This document shows, piece after piece, positions 5,093 to 16,239 of a DNA stretch of 32,787 nt. How positions within the stretch are numbered: position 1 is the stretch's first letter; each line of letters opens with the position of its first letter. Below the pieces are notes generated by a model. The model was not told where the DNA came from and did no database searches. It saw only the letters and a program-made list of their open reading frames with translations. The translations under genes were made by a program, and so were the position numbers. Source of the DNA: Desulfobacula sp. (GTDB taxonomy: Bacteria > Desulfobacterota > Desulfobacteria > Desulfobacterales > Desulfobacteraceae); NCBI GenBank assembly GCA_021647625.1, contig JAKIUJ010000022.1:1-32787 (forward strand), read 5' to 3'.

Positions 5093-6862
5093 TCACTCGT
5101 CCGTTTCTCCAAAAGGAAGTATTGCTTGATACTCTTTTAAAATAAAATCTAAAATGTCCTGTGCTTTATTAAAGTTCATAATTTTTTTAAGGTTTTGTTT
5201 TGCCTTTTCTGCATCGAGATCACGAATAAGTCTTTTAACAGCCGGTATGGATACGGAGTTCATGGAAAAATTAGTTAACCCCATGCCGACAAGAACAGGA
5301 ATATTGATTGGATCACCCGCCATCTCACCGCACATGACAAGCTCAATTCCTTTATTTTTTGCTGCATCGTAGGTCATTTTTATCATCCTTAAAACAGCAG
5401 GACTCAGTGCCTGATATAAATGAGCAACCTGCCTGTTTCGCCTATCAATGGCCATTGAATACTGAATCAAATCATTGGTACCAATACTAAAAAAATCTAC
5501 GTGATCAGCAAGTTGGTCTGCCATAATAACTGCCGAAGGAACTTCAATCATGGCACCGAGAGGTATATCTTTGTTAAAAATTTTGTCTTCCTGTTCAAGT
5601 TGCAAAATGGATTTACTAATCACCTGTTTAACCTGTATAATTTCTTCAACACAGGAAATCATTGGAATCAACAATTTTATATTACCAAATGCTGCAGCTC
5701 TGAAAATCGCTTTTAATTGTGTGATAAAAATATCTTCGTTTTCAAGACAGAATCTTACCGCACGCAGCCCTAAGGATGGATTGGCTTCTTCCATTGCAGT
5801 CAGATATGGATTGACCTTATCCCCATTAATATCAAGAGTTCTAATAGTTACTGTGTTTGGGGTCATCAATTCCACAAGTTCTTTATATTTGCATAACAGC
5901 TCATCTTCGGTGGGAAACCGTTTTAAATCAAGGTACAAAAACTCTGTTCTAAACAGTCCGATATCACTGGCACCGTAGTCTTTAGCCGCCACGACCTCTT
6001 CCACAAGCTCAATATTGGCCATCAAGTTCAATGAAACACCATCTTGAGTTACAGCCGGCAAATGACTTTCGCGCAAAAGCCCTGCCCTGTAAGCTTCATA
6101 TCGTGCCAACCGTTCTTCGTACTCAAATAGAGTATCTTCATCCGGATTAATGATCATTGTGCCGGTGGAGCCGTCTACAATTAGTATATCATCATTTTTA
6201 ACGGCAGTGGTGGCCTGAACGAGCCCGAGAACCGCCGGAATATTTAAAGATTTAGCTACAATACTGGTATGGGAATCCTTACCGCCGCGGTCTGTAACAA
6301 ACCCTTTTATACGTTCAAGCTGAATTTGGCTGGCATCTGCTGGTGAAAGATCGTGGGCAACGATGATAACCCGTTTGTTAATGTCGCAAATTTTTATATC
6401 CTGGGCACCAACAAGATAGGCCATGATTTTGTCTGAAACCTGTACAATATCGTTTACTCTTGCCTGTAGATATTTGTCATCAATCTGTTGAAACAGAGCC
6501 TTAACTTTTCGGGATACTTTTCTTAAGGCCCATTCAGCATTTATTTTTTCATTGGAAATAGTATCGAGCGTAGTGCCATAAAGCATCTTGTCCTTAAACA
6601 ATGCCATATGAGTTTCAAGTATGGTCAAATTTTCACCAATGTCTTCATCCAGAGATTCAATTACATGGGCATGATCATTTTTAGCCTTGGTAACGGCATG
6701 TTTGAAGCGGTCAATTTCTTTGGGAAGCATGTCATCACTGATAGGATAGCGTTTGATAATGTTGACGCCTTCTCTGTCAACGATATACGCTTTTCCGATG
6801 CAGATACCGGGTGCACCACTAATCCCTTTAAGAACCAATTGTTCTGATTTGGAAGGTTTCAT
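5093..6862 (-). CDS. ptsI: PTS phosphoenolpyruvate-protein phosphotransferase (enzyme I)
   Basis: Enzyme I takes phosphate from PEP and passes it to HPr in the cytoplasm. The 589-residue length is near the usual 570-580. The N-terminal HPr-binding/phosphohistidine half carries GISGAPGICIGKAYI at the start and the active-site loop DRGGKDSHTSIVAKSLNIPA with phospho-acceptor His198. The C-terminal PEP-binding barrel shows RTEFLYLD, SLGLRAVRFCL, GAMIEVPSAV, FSIGTNDLIQY and the catalytic-cysteine motif VMCGEMAGDP (near residue 500). It begins 2 nt after the HPr gene and ends 3 nt before smpB. No EII permease gene is visible, so its end targets (sugar transport or only regulation) cannot be told from here. 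The closeness to a class I adenylate cyclase gene invites a regulatory reading. Confidence 0.96.
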   Translation of the reverse strand: MKPSKSEQLVLKGISGAPGICIGKAYIVDREGVNIIKRYPISDDMLPKEIDRFKHAVTKAKNDHAHVIESLDEDIGENLTILETHMALFKDKMLYGTTLDTISNEKINAEWALRKVSRKVKALFQQIDDKYLQARVNDIVQVSDKIMAYLVGAQDIKICDINKRVIIVAHDLSPADASQIQLERIKGFVTDRGGKDSHTSIVAKSLNIPAVLGLVQATTAVKNDDILIVDGSTGTMIINPDEDTLFEYEERLARYEAYRAGLLRESHLPAVTQDGVSLNLMANIELVEEVVAAKDYGASDIGLFRTEFLYLDLKRFPTEDELLCKYKELVELMTPNTVTIRTLDINGDKVNPYLTAMEEANPSLGLRAVRFCLENEDIFITQLKAIFRAAAFGNIKLLIPMISCVEEIIQVKQVISKSILQLEQEDKIFNKDIPLGAMIEVPSAVIMADQLADHVDFFSIGTNDLIQYSMAIDRRNRQVAHLYQALSPAVLRMIKMTYDAAKNKGIELVMCGEMAGDPINIPVLVGMGLTNFSMNSVSIPAVKRLIRDLDAEKAKQNLKKIMNFNKAQDILDFILKEYQAILPFGETDE

Positions 6863-6864
6863 TT

Positions 6865-7161
6865 TTATTTTTCTCCAAAACCGTCTTCAAAAAATTCAAG
6901 AATCTGATTGAGAATATTAACATCAGCCTTATCTTGGATTTCGATGATAACCTGTGTGCCTTTTATTGCTCCCAGGGTAAGGATATCAATGATACTTGTT
7001 GCATCAACTTTAGTAACATCAACGCATAGCCAGACATCCGATTGAGCAGTGCCTGCTATTTCTGAGATTTTTGCCGCAGGCCGTGCATGCATACCAAGCT
7101 CATTGTTCACTATCGTCTTGCGTATTGTAATCGGATTTTTTCCCACTTTTGCACTTTCCAT
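6865..7161 (-). CDS. ptsH: Phosphocarrier protein HPr
   Basis: A 98-residue HPr-family protein. The active-site motif LGMHARPAAK places the phospho-histidine at His25; the protein has about 10 extra residues at its N-terminus compared with classical 85-90 residue HPr. The regulatory-serine region reads DATSIIDILTLGA with Ser56 at the place where HprK would act. HPr shuttles phosphate from enzyme I to EIIA domains. It is first in the HPr-EI-SmpB operon, with a strong promoter just upstream (7179-7205). That promoter sits so close that the 5' leader would be only about 10 nt, and no good Shine-Dalgarno sequence is seen before the ATG. A GTG at codon 6 is an alternative start, which would shorten the protein to classical length. 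Confidence 0.93.
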   Translation of the reverse strand: MESAKVGKNPITIRKTIVNNELGMHARPAAKISEIAGTAQSDVWLCVDVTKVDATSIIDILTLGAIKGTQVIIEIQDKADVNILNQILEFFEDGFGEK

Positions 7162-7349: not shown

Positions 7350-8015
7350 ATGAAAAAATCACCAATGAATGGAAATTATCCCATCAATGATTTTAAATCC
7401 GGAGAATCCTGGCGATTATTTAAAATCATGGGAGAATTTGTAGAAGGTATAGATTCACTGCACAAACTAGGGCCTGCTGTATCTATTTTTGGTTCTGCAA
7501 GAATTAAGAATGATCATCCTTATTACAAAAAAGCCGAAAATCTGGCCAATTTGTTTGGTCAAAAAGGATATGCGGTTATTACAGGCGGAGGCGGCGGTAT
7601 TATGGAAGCTGCTAATAAGGGTGCAACAAATGCAAATGTTGAATCTGTCGGGTTGAATATTAACCTGCCGTTTGAACAAAAACCCAATCCGTTTGCGACC
7701 ACACAAATTGAATTCAATTATTTTTTTGTTCGCAAGGTCATGTTTTTAAAATATGCACAGGCTTATATTATATTGCCCGGAGGGTTTGGAACTTTAGATG
7801 AACTGTTTGAAACCGTTACCTTGATTCAAACACAGAGAATAAGGAAAGTTCCTATTATCCTTGTTGGAAAAGAGTATTGGGACGGGTTGATCCAATGGGT
7901 GAAAAAAAAATTCTTGCAAGAAAAAATGATTTCGGAAAAAGACTTGAATTTAGTCCATGTTTTGGATGATCCGCAAAAAATTGTTAGAGTGGTTGAAGAC
8001 TTCCACAAAGATTGA
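7350..8015 (+). CDS. LOG family (TIGR00730) nucleotide-processing protein
   Basis: The 221-residue Rossmann-fold protein carries the two family signatures: GGGGGIMEAANKGA (residues 79-92) and PGGFGTLDELFE (143-154), the second being the PGGxGTxxE motif that holds the catalytic Arg/Glu site together with an Arg from the preceding helix (FFVRKVMFLK). Family members characterised biochemically hydrolyse nucleoside monophosphates to a free base and ribose 5-phosphate (cytokinin-activating 'Lonely guy' proteins, and AMP/pyrimidine nucleosidases such as E. coli PpnN). The substrate here cannot be read from the sequence; 'lysine decarboxylase' is an old misannotation of this family. It stands alone on the plus strand between two minus-strand genes and has its own promoter. 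It converges with the cyclase gene, leaving 7 nt between stops. Confidence 0.9.
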   Translation: MKKSPMNGNYPINDFKSGESWRLFKIMGEFVEGIDSLHKLGPAVSIFGSARIKNDHPYYKKAENLANLFGQKGYAVITGGGGGIMEAANKGATNANVESVGLNINLPFEQKPNPFATTQIEFNYFFVRKVMFLKYAQAYIILPGGFGTLDELFETVTLIQTQRIRKVPIILVGKEYWDGLIQWVKKKFLQEKMISEKDLNLVHVLDDPQKIVRVVEDFHKD

Positions 8016-8022
8016 TATTTTT

Positions 8023-11000
8023 TTACCTGGAAACACCTTTTGAAAAATAAAACGCTGTATTTACGGGTAACTTTTTAATTTCGATTCTGGTCAAAATATC
8101 TTTTTTAACATCTTCCATAGATGAAAAACCAAGGTTTGAATATACGGATTTGCAAAACATTTCTCCCCATGAGTTTAAATAAATCACCGTATACTCTGTG
8201 ACCAGATTCTGCTGCTTTGGTGCGTAAAAATTAATCGAAATAAACAGATGCATCACTTTATTTTTCTCAAGGAGTTGATCAAAACCGGCAGTCTCTTGTA
8301 TAACAGGCCCTAAAAAATCATTAATTGTTTTAAAGAGCTTTCTGACATCATCGTAAGTGACATAGGTTGGATTAGGTATCAGATTAATGATTGCAGATTC
8401 ATTGTATAAACCATTATTAACCAGCCAGGCACCAATCTCTTCAATCGTTTTTGCACGAATGAGTGATTCTTCCTGATCATGAAAAGCCCGGGCATTTTTA
8501 TTGATCAACTCCCAGGTACCAAGATGATTTTCTTTTTTGAGATACTTTAAATGAAGTCCTGAAAAATGACGATCACTTCTGGAGACCAGCAGCACCTTTC
8601 CCACTTTTCCCTGTTGTTTGGAAAATTCAATAAAAACCTTTCGTCCCAATATTGTTCTATCTTCAGGACTAATTTGAGACCCTCCATGAAATAATTTTTC
8701 AAACGCTTGATTCACTGTTTTATATTTTTTCACCATGTAATTTTCTATGGTGGCTGACAGTCGTGAAATATCGCTATATTGCCAGGCCTTAAAATTGCCA
8801 ATTTCAAATACTTTTTGTTTTTCCCATCCCCATTTGATCAGGCATTTCTCCAATAGAATTTTTCTTAATCCAAAAACAGTGCCGTCGATTTGGGAATCAT
8901 TGGAAATGCCAAGTTTCAAAAAAAAACAAGTTAACAGAATTGAAACGGATTCTTGATCGTCTAATGCCTGGTAATAATTCAAAAGACTATTTATAAGGAT
9001 GAAATAAGAATCATTGTGGGCAACTCCTAAATTCCTTCCTGAATTCATCCATTCGTCTTTATATGTATTGCACAGGAGTGGTTTTTTTCCATACTCATTT
9101 ATGAATTTTTCAAGCAACGCCATTTTTATCACGGATTTAAACGGACTTTTTAACCATTTGACCATTTGCCAGATTGAGGCACCGTAATATTCGTTTGTTG
9201 AAATAGCATGGATATCTCCAAGATCTATGTAACGGCCGACATTGGGAAGATTTGAAATACCTTTTAAAATAATATTGTAATAATGGATACTAATGCCATT
9301 TGGTAAAACCGCCCATAACGGCAGTTTACCGGCAACATAAATCATTGTGCGGTAAAACTCTTCTTTTAAAAGCCTGGCTTGCGCAGAACCGGAACTTTCA
9401 ATTGTAGAACCGCCAAAATCATTATTTTTTGCCTTAAAAATATCCACAAGGAAAAAAGTAACTTGGGTGTCGAACATTTTTTGAGCAAACCCTTCCAAAA
9501 TCAACAGTTTTTTTTCTAATAATTTAAGTTGCAAATCACTGAATTTTTTTTCATTAATACAGACCCAGTAGTCAATATCCGAGTCAACGGTCTGTGCAAA
9601 AGACCCTATACTTCCAATGGTGAATAACCCTTCGATTCCAGGTTGCACCTGGCGCCTGACAGGCAATGTTTTTGATTTAATGTATTGTGATACTATCTGT
9701 CTTGTTTTGGTGCAGGGCAGATAATCATAAATCCCCTTGGGTGTCTGCTTATTAAAATGATCTTCAATACCGGGGAAACTTGTATTCTCATGAAGAAGAA
9801 AGGGAATAATATGAAAAAGATGGGCCTGCCTGGGTTTAAAAATATCAAATGCCGTTAGAAGGCTCATCCGGTTTTGTCTGAAGAATTTTTTTTCACCATA
9901 ATGAATAAATTCGCTAAACAATAGTATATTTATCTTTTCAACAATAGGTTTATTCATTTTTGGGATATCCATTGACCCTAACTGGTATTTTCTGTTGTTA
10001 AACTGGATATTTGAATTGGGATGTGTCGATCGAAAACTATAGGGAAAACGACAGAATCTGGCCTTTGTATTTGAAAAATCAGTTTGTTCGATATTGGACT
10101 TAACAAAAGAAACCGCCGATATTTTGGCATAGGCAAATGATGATCCGGTTAAATCGGTTTGGTTAAATGAACTTTTTGACAGGGTTGCTGCAAGGAATGA
10201 AACATCTTTTAATGATGCGTTATTAAAATTGCAATTAAACGTGGAAACATGCTGGAAGCTGCAATTTTTAAACACAGCTCCTTTTGCATTGACATTTATA
10301 AATACAGCATGGTCAAAACTCACAGACTCAAATTTTGTTTCACGCATATCAACATTGTAAAAAATACTTTTTTTAAATAGACAATTTAAAAAAGATGCAT
10401 TCGAAAAATCACAATTCACCATGATTGATGTATTAAAATAGATAGCAGCAAGGTAGGATAAATTGGAAAGGTTGACGTCACAAAGTGTTTCTCCTTCAAA
10501 ATTTATAGGAGACACGCTTTTATTTGCTCTTAATTGATTTACTTTATTCCGGTTTGCATTAGAAAATATAGACTTAATAAACCCTTGATTCTTTTTGATT
10601 TTTTTTTCTACATATTCAACAACCGGATCAAACTCTTCTTCAATACTGTTCTTTTCTTTTTTTAAAAGTGCTTTGGTTGTATCGATAAACCTTGTAATAC
10701 TTATACGGACGGAATCCTTGGAATCATTATCAAATTCTTTTAACAGTTTGACAACACGTTCGGGTCGTTTTTTAATTATTCCATATATGCAGGCTATATT
10801 GATATCAAGATTGGTGCGTTCATATAATTCTTTGTTCAGGGCAATATCCTGAATGAGAAAGAAAGAAAGCCGGTTCAGGTTGGATAATTCATTTTTCAAA
10901 AGCGGCAAAAGTTTCGGATAATTGTCCCGCATGATTTCCATAACAGTATATATTGGCAGTTTACCCGAGACAATCAGTGCTTTTGTTGCCTGGAATTGTT

Positions 11001-11892
11001 CCTCTTTGTCCATCTTATTAAACATTTCTAAAATCGGATGAAATGCTTTTTGATGAATACCCAGTGTTGAGTTTTCAATGATTTTGTAAATCGTCATTCT
11101 TACACTCTTATCTTTCTCATTGGCCAGGGCTTTGATAAGCATGTCGGTGGGAACAGTAGTGACAATCATTGAAAGCGCTTTTAAACCACGGATGCGGACA
11201 TCAACAGCCGGAGACCTGACCTCTCTTAAAATGATTTGATCCGGGTCCCTCAGAGCTGCCGATAAGTTAAGTAAAAAAGGATCTGTACTGCGTTGTTGGT
11301 CAAAAAGTTGTGCATAATATTTAACAACTGTATTTTTTTGATCGATTGATTGCAAAATACGCTTAAAAACAAGGCCAAATTGCAATCTGGAACCGGGGTC
11401 TGTCAGTAAATACTGGTCCACAAAATCCAATTGTTCTTTTTGGGAAATGGTTGAAATTATTTTTTCTGTTGCAGCAAGACTGATACGCTTCATCGACAGG
11501 GCTTTAAATGCAAATTTTGCGCCCTGTCCGTCAATACCAATCAAAATTTTAAAATAAAAACTTTGCTCGTTGAAGGGTAATTCAGGAACAAGTTGTGAAT
11601 AAAGTCTGTAACACACGGAAGCTGAAGTTTTCATCCCTTGGTCATACTTTATTTTGTCTGAGTGATCCTTTAACAGGTTATGAATTTTTAATTCAATCTG
11701 TTCAAGTGCCTTTCGGGCGTTATTTCGAATGGAAAAATGATAGGAGGACAACCCTTTCAACACAGGGATAATACCTATGTCCGGTTCAAGATCTGCAGCA
11801 GTTTCAACAAGAGTTGCTTTCTCATCTTCCGATAGGTCCTCCCAATGGGATTCAAATGTATGAATGTTCATTTTGTTTAATAGCAGGTCCAT
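8023..11892 (-). CDS. Fusion protein: HEAT-like repeats + pentapeptide repeats + class I adenylate cyclase
   Basis: The 1289-residue protein has three parts. Residues about 30-430 are a helical, HEAT-like repeat region (for example DVRIRGLKALSMI, KSVRMTIYKIIEN, DSVRISITRFID). Residues about 465-615 are pentapeptide repeats with a Phe/Leu every five residues (NCDFSNASFLNCLF, GAVFKNCSF), forming a predicted right-handed beta-helix. Residues about 655-1289 match class I (CyaA-type) adenylate cyclase: GIYDYLP, the nucleotidyltransferase motif GSIGSFAQTVDSDIDYW with GS at 760-761 and metal-binding Asp772 and Asp774, LLKEEFYRTMIYVAGK, EYYGASIWQM and the later YLNSWGE segment. About 200 residues equivalent to the E. 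coli CyaA C-terminal end are missing. Predicted activity is ATP to cAMP. No signal peptide or membrane segment is seen. Two starts are possible, ATG 11892 or 11871; neither has a strong Shine-Dalgarno. It is divergent from parE. Confidence 0.9.
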   Translation of the reverse strand: MDLLLNKMNIHTFESHWEDLSEDEKATLVETAADLEPDIGIIPVLKGLSSYHFSIRNNARKALEQIELKIHNLLKDHSDKIKYDQGMKTSASVCYRLYSQLVPELPFNEQSFYFKILIGIDGQGAKFAFKALSMKRISLAATEKIISTISQKEQLDFVDQYLLTDPGSRLQFGLVFKRILQSIDQKNTVVKYYAQLFDQQRSTDPFLLNLSAALRDPDQIILREVRSPAVDVRIRGLKALSMIVTTVPTDMLIKALANEKDKSVRMTIYKIIENSTLGIHQKAFHPILEMFNKMDKEEQFQATKALIVSGKLPIYTVMEIMRDNYPKLLPLLKNELSNLNRLSFFLIQDIALNKELYERTNLDINIACIYGIIKKRPERVVKLLKEFDNDSKDSVRISITRFIDTTKALLKKEKNSIEEEFDPVVEYVEKKIKKNQGFIKSIFSNANRNKVNQLRANKSVSPINFEGETLCDVNLSNLSYLAAIYFNTSIMVNCDFSNASFLNCLFKKSIFYNVDMRETKFESVSFDHAVFINVNAKGAVFKNCSFQHVSTFNCNFNNASLKDVSFLAATLSKSSFNQTDLTGSSFAYAKISAVSFVKSNIEQTDFSNTKARFCRFPYSFRSTHPNSNIQFNNRKYQLGSMDIPKMNKPIVEKINILLFSEFIHYGEKKFFRQNRMSLLTAFDIFKPRQAHLFHIIPFLLHENTSFPGIEDHFNKQTPKGIYDYLPCTKTRQIVSQYIKSKTLPVRRQVQPGIEGLFTIGSIGSFAQTVDSDIDYWVCINEKKFSDLQLKLLEKKLLILEGFAQKMFDTQVTFFLVDIFKAKNNDFGGSTIESSGSAQARLLKEEFYRTMIYVAGKLPLWAVLPNGISIHYYNIILKGISNLPNVGRYIDLGDIHAISTNEYYGASIWQMVKWLKSPFKSVIKMALLEKFINEYGKKPLLCNTYKDEWMNSGRNLGVAHNDSYFILINSLLNYYQALDDQESVSILLTCFFLKLGISNDSQIDGTVFGLRKILLEKCLIKWGWEKQKVFEIGNFKAWQYSDISRLSATIENYMVKKYKTVNQAFEKLFHGGSQISPEDRTILGRKVFIEFSKQQGKVGKVLLVSRSDRHFSGLHLKYLKKENHLGTWELINKNARAFHDQEESLIRAKTIEEIGAWLVNNGLYNESAIINLIPNPTYVTYDDVRKLFKTINDFLGPVIQETAGFDQLLEKNKVMHLFISINFYAPKQQNLVTEYTVIYLNSWGEMFCKSVYSNLGFSSMEDVKKDILTRIEIKKLPVNTAFYFSKGVSR

Positions 11893-11931
11893 ATAAATAA
11901 TTATTTCCTATTTTTACATTTCCAAATAAAA

Positions 11932-11976
11932 ATGGTATAGGCTAATGTTTAAAATCGCATATATTTTATATACCAT
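11932..11976. promoter_or_regulatory. Inverted repeat in the divergent cyclase-parE promoter region
   Basis: ATGGTATA (11932-11939) and TATACCAT (11969-11976) are perfect 8-bp inverted repeats with 29 nt between, inside the 97-nt region between the two divergent genes. The half-sites are 37 bp apart centre to centre, between three and four helical turns. It may be an operator pair or simply AT-rich promoter sequence. Confidence 0.3.
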
Positions 11977-11989
11977 ACTGAATTGAATT

Positions 11990-13933
11990 ATGAAATTATT
12001 TGAACCAACAAACGAAAATCGAGAATTGAACGGCACGTATAATGCTGAATCCATTGAAGTTTTAAAAGGACTTGATCCTGTAAAACGTCGGCCTGGGATG
12101 TATACCGACACATCAAGTCCGGATCATCTTGCTTTTGAAGTCATTGATAATTCCGTTGATGAAGCCATTGCCGGTTTTGCAACAAAGATTTCAGTTGAGT
12201 TTAGAGCGGATAACTCTTTAATTGTTTCAGATAATGGCCGTGGCATGCCTGTGGATATCCACCCGAAAGAAAAAATATCCGGTGTTGAATTAATTATGTC
12301 AAAGCTGCATGCAGGCGCCAAATTTTCAAACAAAGATTACAGCTATTCCGGCGGATTACATGGTGTTGGTGTTTCTGTAGTAAACGCCCTGTCGATGGAT
12401 TTAAGCATCCAAATAAAAAGGAACGGACATCAATATCATATTGGATTTAAAAACGGAGATAAAGTCAGTGACCTTAAGGTCATGAATAAATTGGAAAAAG
12501 ACGAATCCGGTACAATCGTCCAATTTTATCCTGACATTTCCTATTTTGATATCCCTCATTTTTCCAGGGATGCTATAAAAACAGCTTTAAAATCCAAAGC
12601 GGTTCTCTGCAAAGGTCTGATTACGTCGTTTTATGATGAAACAAGCGATGAAACGATAACCTGGCAATATAATCATGGCTTAGATGATTATCTTAATGAA
12701 AATTTAAAAAACCGTGACTGCCTTTTTCCGGCTCCTTTTGACGGCGAGGTCCCAGGGGATGACATTCATATCATCTGGGCTGTGAACTGGACACTGGAAT
12801 CCGGAAATAACCCTGAAGAAAGCTATGTTAACCTGATTCCAACCCGATTGGGCGGCACCCATGTAAACGGATTTCGTTCCGGTCTGCTGGAGTCAGTCAG
12901 AGAATTTTGTAAATTCAGAAATCTGTTACCCAAAGGCCTCTACCTTGCTCCGGAGGATATCTGGGACAGGGTCGGTTACATCCTTTCGATAAAACTGTCC
13001 GATGCACAGTTTTCAGGTCAAACAAAAGAACGGTTATCCTCCCGATTTTGTGCAAACCTTGTGAATATTAAAATCCGGGATGCGTTCAGTTTATGGCTTA
13101 ATCAAAATATTCAAGCAGGTGAAAAACTTGCTCAAATGGCCATAGACAATGCAAAGAACCGAATTAAAAAATCAAAAAAAGTTACAAAGAAAAAATCAAG
13201 AAACGGTGGAACCCTTCCTGCAAAATTATCGGATTGTTCAAGCCTGGATCAAAATAAAAGAGAACTGTTTTTTGTCGAGGGTGATTCCGCCGGAGGGTCT
13301 GCAAAACAGGCACGAGACAGACGATTTCAAGCCATAATGCCATTGAGAGGAAAAATATTAAACACCTGGGATGTCGATTCTTCAACCGTTGCCGATTCAA
13401 AAGAAATAAAAGATATTGCCCAGGTCATAGGCGTAATCCCCGGTTCCGAAGATATTTCAAAATTAAGATATAATAAAATCTGCATCCTGGCGGATGCGGA
13501 TTCAGATGGTCTCCATATTGCCACCTTGATATGTGCATTATTTTTAAAACATTATCCAAAAGTTGTTAAAAATGGTCATGTTTTTGTTGCCATGCCCCCT
13601 TTATATCGAATTGATGCAGGCAAAAAAGTTTATTATGCACTGGACGATGATGAAAAAGACGCAATTATAAAACGGGTGAACAGACGCAAAAGGCCGGGAA
13701 AAATTAATATCCAGCGTTTTAAGGGGCTGGGAGAAATGAATCCTATGCAACTTCGGGAAACAACCATTTGCCCGGATTCAAGAAGGCTTGTACAACTATC
13801 CATAGAACAAGATGACAAACACACACTAGAAGAGGTATACGAGACTATGGATATGCTGCTTGGTAAAAAACGGGCAAAAGACAGAAAAAAATGGATAGAA
13901 TCAAACGGTAATATTAAAGAGATGGATCAATGA
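11990..13933 (+). CDS. parE: DNA topoisomerase IV subunit B
   Basis: A 647-residue type IIA topoisomerase ATPase subunit. The Bergerat ATP site shows [21 protein letters not shown] and [13 protein letters not shown]; the transducer shows the QTKERL-type loop (GQTKERLSS); the TOPRIM domain shows [20 protein letters not shown] and [54 protein letters not shown] and the N-terminal [27 protein letters not shown] resemble ParE rather than GyrB, as does the parC partner. ParE supplies ATP-driven strand passage for decatenating sister chromosomes. The gene ends in a 4-nt ATGA overlap with parC. The ATG at 11990 lacks a good ribosome binding site, so the N-terminus is less certain than the rest. Confidence 0.94.
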
Positions 13934-16239
13934 AGCAGGCGCTTACCCCCCAATTAGAAGATTTTGACACGATCCCTTTTCAGGATTTTGCAAAAAAGGC
14001 GTATCTTAACTATTCAATGTACGTCATTCTGGATCGTGCCCTGCCCCACATTGGTGATGGTTTAAAGCCTGTTCAACGGCGTATTATTTATTCCATGAGT
14101 CAGTTGGGGTTGAGCTCTACTGCAAAATTTAAAAAATCAGCCAGAACCGTTGGGGATGTATTGGGTAAATTTCATCCGCACGGTGACACTGCCTGCTATG
14201 AAGCCATGGTGCATTTGGCCCAGCCTTTTTCCATGCGGTATACCCTTGTGGACGGGCAGGGAAACTGGGGTGATCCAAATGATCCAAAATCATTTGCAGC
14301 CATGCGATATACCGAATCAAGGTTATCAAAATATGCACAAATATTCCTCAAAGAATTGGAATTTGGAACGGTTGACTGGGTACCCAACTTTGATGGAACG
14401 CTTGAAGAACCCACACTATTACCGGCAAGACTGCCCAATATCTTGTTGAATGGCTCCATGGGCATTGCTGTTGGTATGGCCACCCATATCCTGCCCCACA
14501 ACTTAAGAGAAGTTGCCAAGGCACTGATTTATCTCATTGATAATGATGATGCTGATCTGGATACTGTGTGCAAACTGATCAAAGGCCCTGATTTCCCCAC
14601 CGATGCTGAAATCATAACATCTTCCGAAGAGATAAAAGAGATATACAGGATAGGCAGAGGCAGGATAAAAATGCGGGCAAAATACCATATAGAAGACGGA
14701 GAAATAATTTTTATTGCCCTTCCTTATCAGGCATCTGTTGAAAAAATATACGAGCAGGTAGCCGGCCAGATGGAGGCCAAAAAGCTGCCCATGGTCAGTG
14801 ATATCAGAGATGAATCCGATCATGAGGCTCCAACCCGCCTTGTCATTATACCTAGGTCAAACAGAGTTGACCTTGACTCACTTGCCGATCATCTATTTGC
14901 CACAACCGATCTTGAAAAATCGTATTCTTTCAATATGAATATGATCGGCACGGATGGACGTCCAAAAGTCAAACCCCTCTTACCGCTATTAAGTGAATGG
15001 TTACAATTTAGGGCAGAGACTGTACGCAAAAAATTAAATTTTAAATTAAATAAAATAATTGACCGTCTTCATATCCTGGATGGATATTTAACCGCCTTTC
15101 TCAATATTGATGAAGTCATAAAAATTATTCGCCAATCAGATTCACCACAAAAGGATTTAATCAAGGCTTTTTCTTTAACAACAACACAGGCCGATGCAAT
15201 TTTAGCTATACGGTTACGGCAACTGGCAAAACTTGAAGAAATTAAATTAAAAGCTGAAAAAAAAGAACTGGAATCAGAGAAAAAAAAATTAAATAAAATC
15301 TTAAATAATGAAACCGTCTTCAAAAAATATATTAAAGATGAAATAAAATCCGATGCAAAAACCTATGGTGACAAACGGCGTTCTCCTATTAAAAAAAGAA
15401 AGGAAGCTGAAAAATTTTCTTTTACCGATGTCATTGATATAGAACCTGTTACAATTATTTTATCCCAAAACGGTTGGATCAAATCTGCAAAAGGCCATGA
15501 AATCAATCCTGAAACCGTAAAATTCAAATCAGGGGACTCACTTCTTTCTCATATTCGGACAAAGAATGATAAACCCATTATCTTTTTAGACAGCCGTGGT
15601 CGAAGTTATATGCTTTTTTCCCATGCCCTGCCATCTGCCAGAAGTATTGGAGAGCCGCTTACAGGTCATTTATCCATTCAACAAAATGCAGGTATAAAAT
15701 TTTTAATATCTGCACAACCGAACGATCATTTTCTGATGGGATCTGACAGCGGATATGGTTTCATTATCAAGTTTGAAGATTTTCAGACTCAGTATAAAAA
15801 TGGTAAAGCCATTGTTACTTTGAACCACAACCAGAACTTGTTTGCCCCATCAAAAGTATTAAATGTGAAAAAGGATCGTGTTGTCGCCATCACTTCAAAA
15901 GGAAGATTATTAATATTTAGTTTAAATCAATTGCCCTATTTAAAAAAAGGCAAGGGAAATAAAATTATATCCATCCCTAAGAAAATGACCCTTGCAAAAG
16001 TCCCGGAAAGACTTAAGTTCTTAAAAATATTGCCATTAAATTTCAATCTTGTTATACACTCGGGCAGACACGAATTAAAATTAAATCCGGGAAATCAAAA
16101 AAACTATATGGGAACACGGGGACATAGGGGTAAAAAATTACCCCAGGCATATCAAAATGTTGATAGCATTACCATCTTTCCTGTAGAGACGGATATAAAG
16201 CCTGAAATCATATCCGATATTGACACCGATACTGAGTAA
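13930..16239 (+). CDS. parC: DNA topoisomerase IV subunit A
   Basis: A 769-residue DNA-cleavage subunit. The N-terminal [41 protein letters not shown] and the active-site AAMRYTES with catalytic Tyr127 match ParC. There is no GyrA box (QRRGGKG type) in the C-terminal beta-pinwheel region, which supports ParC over GyrA. A Lys-rich coiled segment lies near residues 435-460 ([20 protein letters not shown]). The quinolone-contact position corresponding to E. coli Ser80 is Thr87 here ([10 protein letters not shown]), with the following acidic residue Glu91 kept. It overlaps parE by 4 nt and is followed 2 nt later by mltF, forming one transcription unit. Confidence 0.95.

Follow-up and report, generated by a model that had tools for sequence, protein, structure and literature searches.

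A Class I Adenylate Cyclase Behind a HEAT-like and Pentapeptide-Repeat Arm in Desulfobacula and Its Relatives

The 32,787-nucleotide stretch of DNA analyzed here (contig JAKIUJ010000022.1 of Desulfobacula sp. assembly GCA_021647625.1, positions 1 to 32,787, hereafter the window) encodes, on the minus strand from position 11892 down to 8023, a protein of 1289 residues in which a predicted HEAT-like solenoid and a pentapeptide-repeat beta-helix precede a class I adenylate cyclase. Computation establishes the domain order of this fusion, an intact nucleotidyltransferase-type motif, the placement of the pentapeptide-bearing cyclases on one branch and a set of conserved neighbors. The fusion is real, conserved and old, and it appears to be a previously undescribed variant of class I adenylate cyclase as far as the open-licence literature shows: no description of a HEAT-like/pentapeptide/class I cyclase layout was found in open-licence full-text papers, a scope outside which most subscription papers fall, and domain databases may list the layout without comment. 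Loci, genomes, contigs and families are referred to below, where needed, by our own handles (L, G, C and f).

Results and Discussion

The fusion gene is a single uninterrupted open reading frame (ORF) with an ATG start. From the N-terminus, a predicted HEAT-like alpha-solenoid (residues 1-455, positions 10528..11892, assigned from profile similarity and from a model that covers residues 90-455) is followed by the pentapeptide-repeat beta-helix (residues 456-625, 10018..10527, with strands mostly every 10 residues, assigned from Pfam, the model and matches to pentapeptide chains in the PDB), by Adenyl_cycl_N (PF12633, residues 668-860, 9313..9891), within which the catalytic motif G-S...S-D-x-D-x-W lies at residues 760-776 (9565..9615), and by Adenylate_cycl (PF01295, residues 888-1222, 8227..9231), all on the minus strand; the class I cyclase part as a whole takes up about residues 660-1289. 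An AlphaFold model of residues 90-1289, built with 52 sequences, is confident (mean predicted local distance difference test score, pLDDT, 86.1; predicted template modeling score, pTM, 0.83) and comprises helices only to about residue 456, short strands mostly every 10 residues to about residue 612 and the catalytic domain thereafter. ORF, Pfam matches and model together bear out the first-pass annotation of this DNA, made from the letters alone, which had claimed a three-part fusion with the repeats ahead of a class I catalytic module and had named a structure prediction as one check.

Both class I cyclase domains are matched with significance in the Pfam scan, PF12633 at E 5.7e-46 and PF01295, over positions 2-334 of its 601, at E 2.7e-51, and both exceed their curated cut-offs (157 and 175 bits against 27). 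The GS...DxD claimed at residues 760-774 is correctly placed and intact: G760, S761, G763, A766, S771, D772, D774 and W776 are invariant in 27/27 and in 52/52 aligned fusion proteins, with no loss of the DxD in any of these homologues, and D817, on the next strand, is invariant in the 27-protein alignment and at least 90% conserved in the 52-protein one. Missing class I profile matches and a lost DxD, two of the three outcomes named as refuting in the first-pass annotation, thus did not come about. We take the G-S...D-x-D spacing to be the hallmark of polymerase-beta-like nucleotidyltransferases; the strand order and motif of the model fit that fold, but the 50 Foldseek matches listed contain no solved nucleotidyltransferase; weak Polbeta profile matches, below cut-off, are seen in two relatives (L167, E 0.021; L080, E 0.0013). 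Going by its family, the fusion is very probably an active enzyme that converts ATP to cyclic AMP (cAMP). The alternative that the catalytic domain is intact but makes another product, either a different cyclic nucleotide or a nucleotidylated protein, would accord with an identity to E. coli CyaA of just 24% over 605 aligned residues, with a best NCBIfam match (NF006981, a 638-residue class I cyclase model, positions 24-617) that scores 410 bits against a curated cut-off of 802, and with the lack of any class I cyclase chain in the PDB copy at E 0.01 in a profile search. We nevertheless judge it improbable, given that both Pfam domains lie far over their cut-offs, that the fusion retains the G-S and S-D-x-D-x-W of E. 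coli CyaA and that the genome holds 15 cyclic nucleotide monophosphate (cNMP)-binding domain matches. Some of these cNMP-binding proteins would read the cAMP made by the fusion.

E. coli K-12 CyaA shares with the fusion PF12633 and PF01295, the G-S...S-D-x-D-x-W motif and an E-F-Y-R-T block; it differs in that its catalytic part comes first, in that it carries no Pfam repeat domain and in about 200 more C-terminal residues, whereas the catalytic part of the fusion begins only near residue 660, after a repeat arm of about 650 residues. The PF01295 match of the fusion stops at model position 334 of 601; that of E. coli CyaA runs from 1 to 600. The earlier statement that the last 200 or so residues of the enteric protein are absent thus holds against E. 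coli CyaA, but not as a trait peculiar to the fusion. In eleven other non-enteric class I cyclases (L167, L185, L194, L195, L200, L202, L203, L080, L141, L153 and L160) the PF01295 match likewise stops short, at model positions 322-359; a twelfth, L204, was left unscored, its match being split in two. Truncation as a special trait is ruled out by these eleven, and a tail unlike the enteric one is, to judge from their profile matches, ordinary outside enterics. Some 300 extra residues, without any Pfam match, lie beyond the PF01295 match in L194, L195 and L202. A global alignment of the fusion with E. coli CyaA stretches to both ends and cannot place the loss of the E. coli tail. With a catalytic part that is not N-terminal, a PF01295 match that ends at 334/601 and no EIIA-Glc in 58/58 genomes (see below), the fusion falls outside the enteric CyaA subtype.

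The arm in front of the catalytic part was then considered in its two halves. No Pfam HEAT model matches the fusion at E 0.01, no HEAT structure occurs among the 50 structural matches listed for the fusion model, and the only HEAT-model matches, at E 0.0051 and 0.029 and below cut-off, are those of the distant relative L200. Residues 90 to about 456 are all helical in the confident model, and the family profile of the fusion reaches designed solenoid chains in the PDB (9sah, E 1.8e-5; AlphaRep-7, E 0.0046), with no single stretch passing alone; alphaReps are HEAT-like. Because there is no Pfam HEAT match, yet an all-helical model and a similarity to designed solenoids, HEAT-like is a fair description of the N-terminal region and not a family assignment, and it is in the former sense that the helices of the first-pass annotation stand. 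The best-conserved 12-residue stretch of this part is GIIKKRPERVVK (residues 371-382), its best-conserved patch being IKKRPERVV (residues 373-381). In the second half, three Pfam pentapeptide models match, with best stretches within residues 490-616 and E from 3.4e-16 to 6.9e-11, so the pentapeptide profile check came out positive; the beta-helix, which is also found in the model and the structure matches, spans about residues 470-620, and the family profile reaches PDB pentapeptide chains with E values as low as 6e-23. QnrB1, AlbG and MfpA are among the best of the 50 structural matches listed. With these proteins and HetL the fusion shares a pentapeptide beta-helix matched by profile and fold, but in the fusion it is a domain inside an enzyme and near-neutral: residues 470-620 carry a net charge of +3, with a mean of -0.9 and a range of -8 to +5 over 27 proteins (net charge, no surface map), and the strongly acidic character typical of DNA mimics is not seen in this part of the 27 proteins by that measure. 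A partial NCBIfam pentapeptide match to HalA lies far below its cut-off (35 of 250 bits). A role as an anti-phage defence protein was rejected, none of three fusion proteins matching a PADLOC-DB family at E 0.001.

The distribution of the fusion was surveyed over 97 genomes, its own included, of which 58 belong to the same family (several of them incomplete) and 39 are others of the order. Matches at E 1e-149 or better occur in 41/58 same-family genomes and in 1/39 others (G070); some of the 41 carry copies cut by contig ends or interrupted, while eight genomes (G002, G003, G016, G034, G041, G048, G052 and G056) hold two complete copies. Dozens of genomes share the layout and the length at 31-62% identity, well above what chance would give. 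Among the fetched loci, which are the best 80 of 214 relatives in the named collection, all three parts are present in 58; a survey of the domain order across Desulfobacterota had been suggested in the first-pass annotation. Pentapeptide and cyclase parts occur together in 65/80, seven loci showing both without a recognized N-terminus (two of these are interrupted copies), and the cyclase stands alone in 15/80 (11 of them short proteins, the other 4 cut off at or close to the end of a contig). In L174, considered as a candidate for a separately encoded HEAT-like part, the ORF begins inside the pentapeptide part and the adjoining upstream stretch is masked. Named hosts are Desulfospira joergensenii, Desulfobacter latus, Desulfobacter vibrioformis and Desulfamplus magnetovallimortis, and further hosts are metagenome-assembled genomes labelled Desulfobacula, Desulfotignum, Desulfobacterium, Desulfarculaceae and Desulfovibrio. 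When genomes were drawn evenly across the phylum, 37/297 had a class I cyclase. Eighteen loci from this draw, selected so as to take in nearly all the long frames and hence giving no rate, comprise 6 with pentapeptide and cyclase parts (of which L197 and L198 repeat loci already fetched), 7 long ones without a pentapeptide match and 5 short ones. Other long class I cyclases of the phylum (L193, L195 and L202) extend beyond the matched catalytic part by 200-365 residues on its N-terminal side and about 325 on its C-terminal side, and the flanking parts of L195 and L202 contain no Pfam domain.

Trees were built on the cyclase part alone and rooted on the E. coli outgroup, and the program flagged long branches. 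In a 41-row tree, a subset with rows picked for spread, 21/21 pentapeptide-bearing rows fall on one side of a branch with support 96/88, found in 98% of 200 bootstrap trees. The 98-row quick tree from which it was drawn groups 64/64 pentapeptide rows (SH-like approximate likelihood-ratio test, SH-aLRT, 98), as a mainly Desulfobacterales branch of 56 and another of 8; it omits fragments, interrupted copies and short cyclases (L081, L084, L085, L086, L121, L139, L140, L142, L162, L168, L172 and L173), L197 and L198, regarded as duplicates of L187 and L183, and cyclase matches spanning less than 450 residues. The strong matches in 41/58 family genomes and the single tree branch rule out a recent fusion, a chance fusion and a misassembled contig. 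The simplest reading would be one fusion event early in the phylum, followed by mainly vertical descent with duplications. The branch of 8 may carry the same helical arm: a joint profile of the N-termini of L177, L183, L185, L187 and L192 matches the fusion N-terminal profile over 230 columns (probability 75), but L177 falls in the Desulfobacterales branch.

Short non-enteric class I cyclases (about 630-750 residues, NF006981-type) have the same core, with PF01295 likewise matched only in its first part, but no HEAT-like or pentapeptide part was found in them and they lie outside the pentapeptide branch. The second class I cyclase gene of the same genome is of this short type (633 residues; L214:1510-6170, G000:C299). 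It lacks the E-S-S-G-S block and keeps S-D-x-D-x-W; it is near a gene for a cNMP-binding protein, with one opposite-strand ORF between, and a response regulator with TPRs comes immediately after it. A YcgR-like PilZ match shares its contig with a short class I cyclase, at a distance of roughly 7-11 kb, in eight genomes (G000, G003, G005, G009, G016, G018, G020 and G070).

Next to the fusion, on one side, the window holds in order a LOG-type gene (7350..8015, plus strand; PF03641, TIGR00730), which in several relatives is not in between, the gene for HPr of the phosphotransferase system (PTS) (98 residues, 6865..7161, minus strand; Pfam and genome search), PTS enzyme I (EI; 589 residues, 5093..6862, minus strand; Pfam, NCBIfam) and SmpB. 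On the other side, beyond a 97-bp intergenic region (11893..11989) common to both, lie the divergent topoisomerase IV genes parE (11990-13933) and parC (13930-16239; together 11990..16239, plus strand), often kept with the fusion; ParC was named from Pfam and NCBIfam scans, and ParE from its sequence and its place before parC. No CRP-like site (TGTGA-N6-TCACA, at most 2 mismatches) was found in the 97-bp region, and CRP autoregulation was rejected on this ground; the whole window has 8 such matches against 15.9 expected by chance, and a promoter and terminator scan gave no more than chance. Synteny was counted over 57 nearer loci, sorted by kind (L137 and L176 being cut copies of the near type, and L167 not belonging here) and with minimum flanks of 3.5 kb for EI/HPr and 2.5 kb for parE asked strictly; the related species behind these counts are not independent. 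EI is downstream in 33/45 and HPr in 32/45 loci with sufficient flank. Six Desulfotignum and Desulfospira loci have the fusion and the HPr ORF on the same strand, separated by 14-151 bp and with no LOG-type gene between them, and four Desulfamplus loci keep HPr-EI-SmpB but not parE.

EIIA-Glc (PF00358) is absent from 58/58 family genomes searched, with 5/14 control genomes, E. coli included, positive. In the fusion's own genome (93% complete) one HPr was found, the one in the window, which is the only PF00381 match; there is no EIIC of the two EIIC families searched, one EIIA-Man match, three EIIA-2 matches and a partial HPr-kinase match. An rpoN cluster contains rpoN, then an EIIA-2 gene (EIIA-Ntr by its place), RapZ and EIIA-Man. 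Genes for GAPDH and triosephosphate isomerase come after these four in L213 (G000:C132:36000-48000). Given a single HPr, no EIIC of two families and no EIIA-Glc, but EIIA-2 and EIIA-Man in the rpoN cluster, the PTS of this genome looks regulatory. The first-pass annotation had proposed a regulation mode different from EIIA-Glc control. This is upheld insofar as EIIA-Glc is absent; PTS control by another route nonetheless remains the leading guess, because the window holds the genome's only HPr found together with an EI gene. The fusion may therefore share with the EIIA-Glc-controlled enteric cyclase a dependence on PTS phosphorylation, while differing from it in having no EIIA-Glc in its host family and the only HPr found, with EI, encoded beside it. 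To our knowledge, the action of EIIA-Glc on class I cyclases has long been unclear.

As the best explanation of the whole, which we put forward tentatively and at slightly less than even odds, we propose that the class I cyclase would sit at the tip of a rigid arm made of two repeat parts. The HEAT-like part would be a docking surface, with the patch at residues 373-381 as its best-conserved candidate site, and the beta-helix a stiff spacer that passes binding on to the catalytic domain. The bound signal, the least sure step, would be the phosphorylation state of the regulatory PTS, perhaps via EIIA-Ntr or EIIA-Man, and if so the supply of phosphoenolpyruvate would set the cAMP level through this PTS. 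The fusion would then resemble the enteric link between PTS and cyclase, but through other parts. A docking and relay role for the arm is probable; PTS phosphorylation, which the neighboring genes suggest, is the best single guess for the input, albeit one more doubtful than not.

Several observations weigh against this proposal. The good AlphaFold model leaves out the first 89 residues of the presumed docking part, and no solved nucleotidyltransferase is among the 50 Foldseek matches listed, nearly all of which are pentapeptide proteins. An opposite-strand LOG-type gene separates fusion and HPr in the window, so here they do not form one operon. As parE is kept upstream in 29/44 nearer loci with enough flank, and as SmpB travels with EI, HPr-EI may adjoin the fusion by old synteny alone. 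Two Desulfobacterium loci keep parE with no EI found within 6 kb, and in ten nearer loci with both flanks there is neither parE nor EI; nine of these ten keep an uninterrupted arm, the tenth (L142) being interrupted. Among 12 more distant pentapeptide cyclases, EI/HPr is nearby in 0/11 with enough flank. For comparison, EI is near 0/7 and parE near 0/8 of the 11 short cyclases with enough flank.

The presence of parE-parC, divergent from the fusion gene, raises another reading, in which the pentapeptide part binds a type II topoisomerase in the manner of Qnr and MfpA and so ties cAMP to DNA supercoiling. The frequency of parE upstream, the structural matches to QnrB1, AlbG and MfpA among the 50 listed, and a DNA gyrase B gene (3-2033) upstream of the distant pentapeptide cyclase in L200, in the same orientation and with a YdjM-like gene intervening, would be expected from it. 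Any pentapeptide protein, however, would match these structures, and the ten nearer loci just mentioned have no parE; none of the 9 distant pentapeptide cyclases with 2.5 kb or more of upstream flank has a parE-like gene there (a cut parE/gyrB-like ORF is seen in L187, where the flank is shorter). Qnr/MfpA-type proteins mimic DNA by strong negative charge, and it is because the pentapeptide part of the fusion is not acidic that topoisomerase binding is disfavored and in our view highly improbable. In L183, L187 and L200 a conserved ORF of 755-798 residues lies downstream of the cyclase, the L200 copy being without a Pfam match at E 0.0001.

A closer competitor keeps the same enzyme and docking arm and changes the input: the arm would be a platform for cyclic di-GMP (c-di-GMP) or two-component partners, and HPr-EI would be inherited synteny. 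Six Desulfamplus loci have a PilZ/YcgR-like gene immediately after the fusion, with gaps of -11 to +140 bp (for example L157:12082-13386; Pfam-named in two), and in L173 such a gene lies 1.3 kb after a cut fusion copy; a full-length PilZ/YcgR-like relative is found beside the fusion in 5/5 genomes of the Desulfamplus genus code. HPr-EI, on the other hand, also follows in four of the six PilZ loci, the PilZ neighbor is absent within 1.9 kb after the fusion in L156, and in G046 the full-length PilZ relative is on another contig than the fusion. Of ten copies outside the HPr-EI site, seven have nearby ORFs belonging to a single similarity cluster, with two-component proteins among its members (Pfam-checked in L122 and L124), and in L124 (10089-12826) a hybrid kinase and a REC-HD_5 protein follow such a copy on the same strand. 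ORFs similar to this pair come after fusion copies in L128 and L142. A DUF3391 and HD_5 gene stands directly upstream, on the same strand, in L203 (2946-4235) and L205 (8808-10097), 18 and 61 bp away. The pentapeptide cyclases of these last two loci belong to another family (f84). Genomes of this kind commonly carry HD-GYP and two-component genes, and the neighbor counts given here are raw, uncorrected for background. We regard this reading as somewhat unlikely; to go by the neighboring genes, c-di-GMP or two-component partners would rank next after the PTS as a guess for the input.

Conclusions

Most of what is known of class I cyclases comes from enterics and related bacteria. The fusion is a widespread and stable form of them whose arm is of another kind and has clear boundaries, and it offers a target from which the arm can be cleanly removed. 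Its hosts, with a PTS that looks regulatory and no EIIA-Glc found, offer a natural comparison for how the PTS came to control cAMP. The fusion being often encoded beside phosphate-relay proteins in sulfate-reducing bacteria, the origin of relay control over such cyclases becomes testable. A 2008 study (PMC2405797) proposed the gain of HPr and EI as a key event in a catabolite control pathway exclusive to the Vibrio-Pasteurella-enteric-Shewanella group, and placed the cyclase type of that group in only a few species outside it. In the fusion family, which belongs to another phylum, class I cyclases stand next to HPr-EI. That it amounts to a PTS-controlled cAMP switch without EIIA-Glc or sugar permeases, in which the HPr-EI chain of an anaerobe acts on a class I cyclase via a HEAT-pentapeptide arm, is distinctly unlikely. 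If true, class I cyclase would have come to be coupled to the PTS before the enteric glucose system arose, or independently of it, contrary to the published idea (PMC2405797) of a cyclase-based system as a novelty of the Vibrio-Pasteurella-enteric-Shewanella group.

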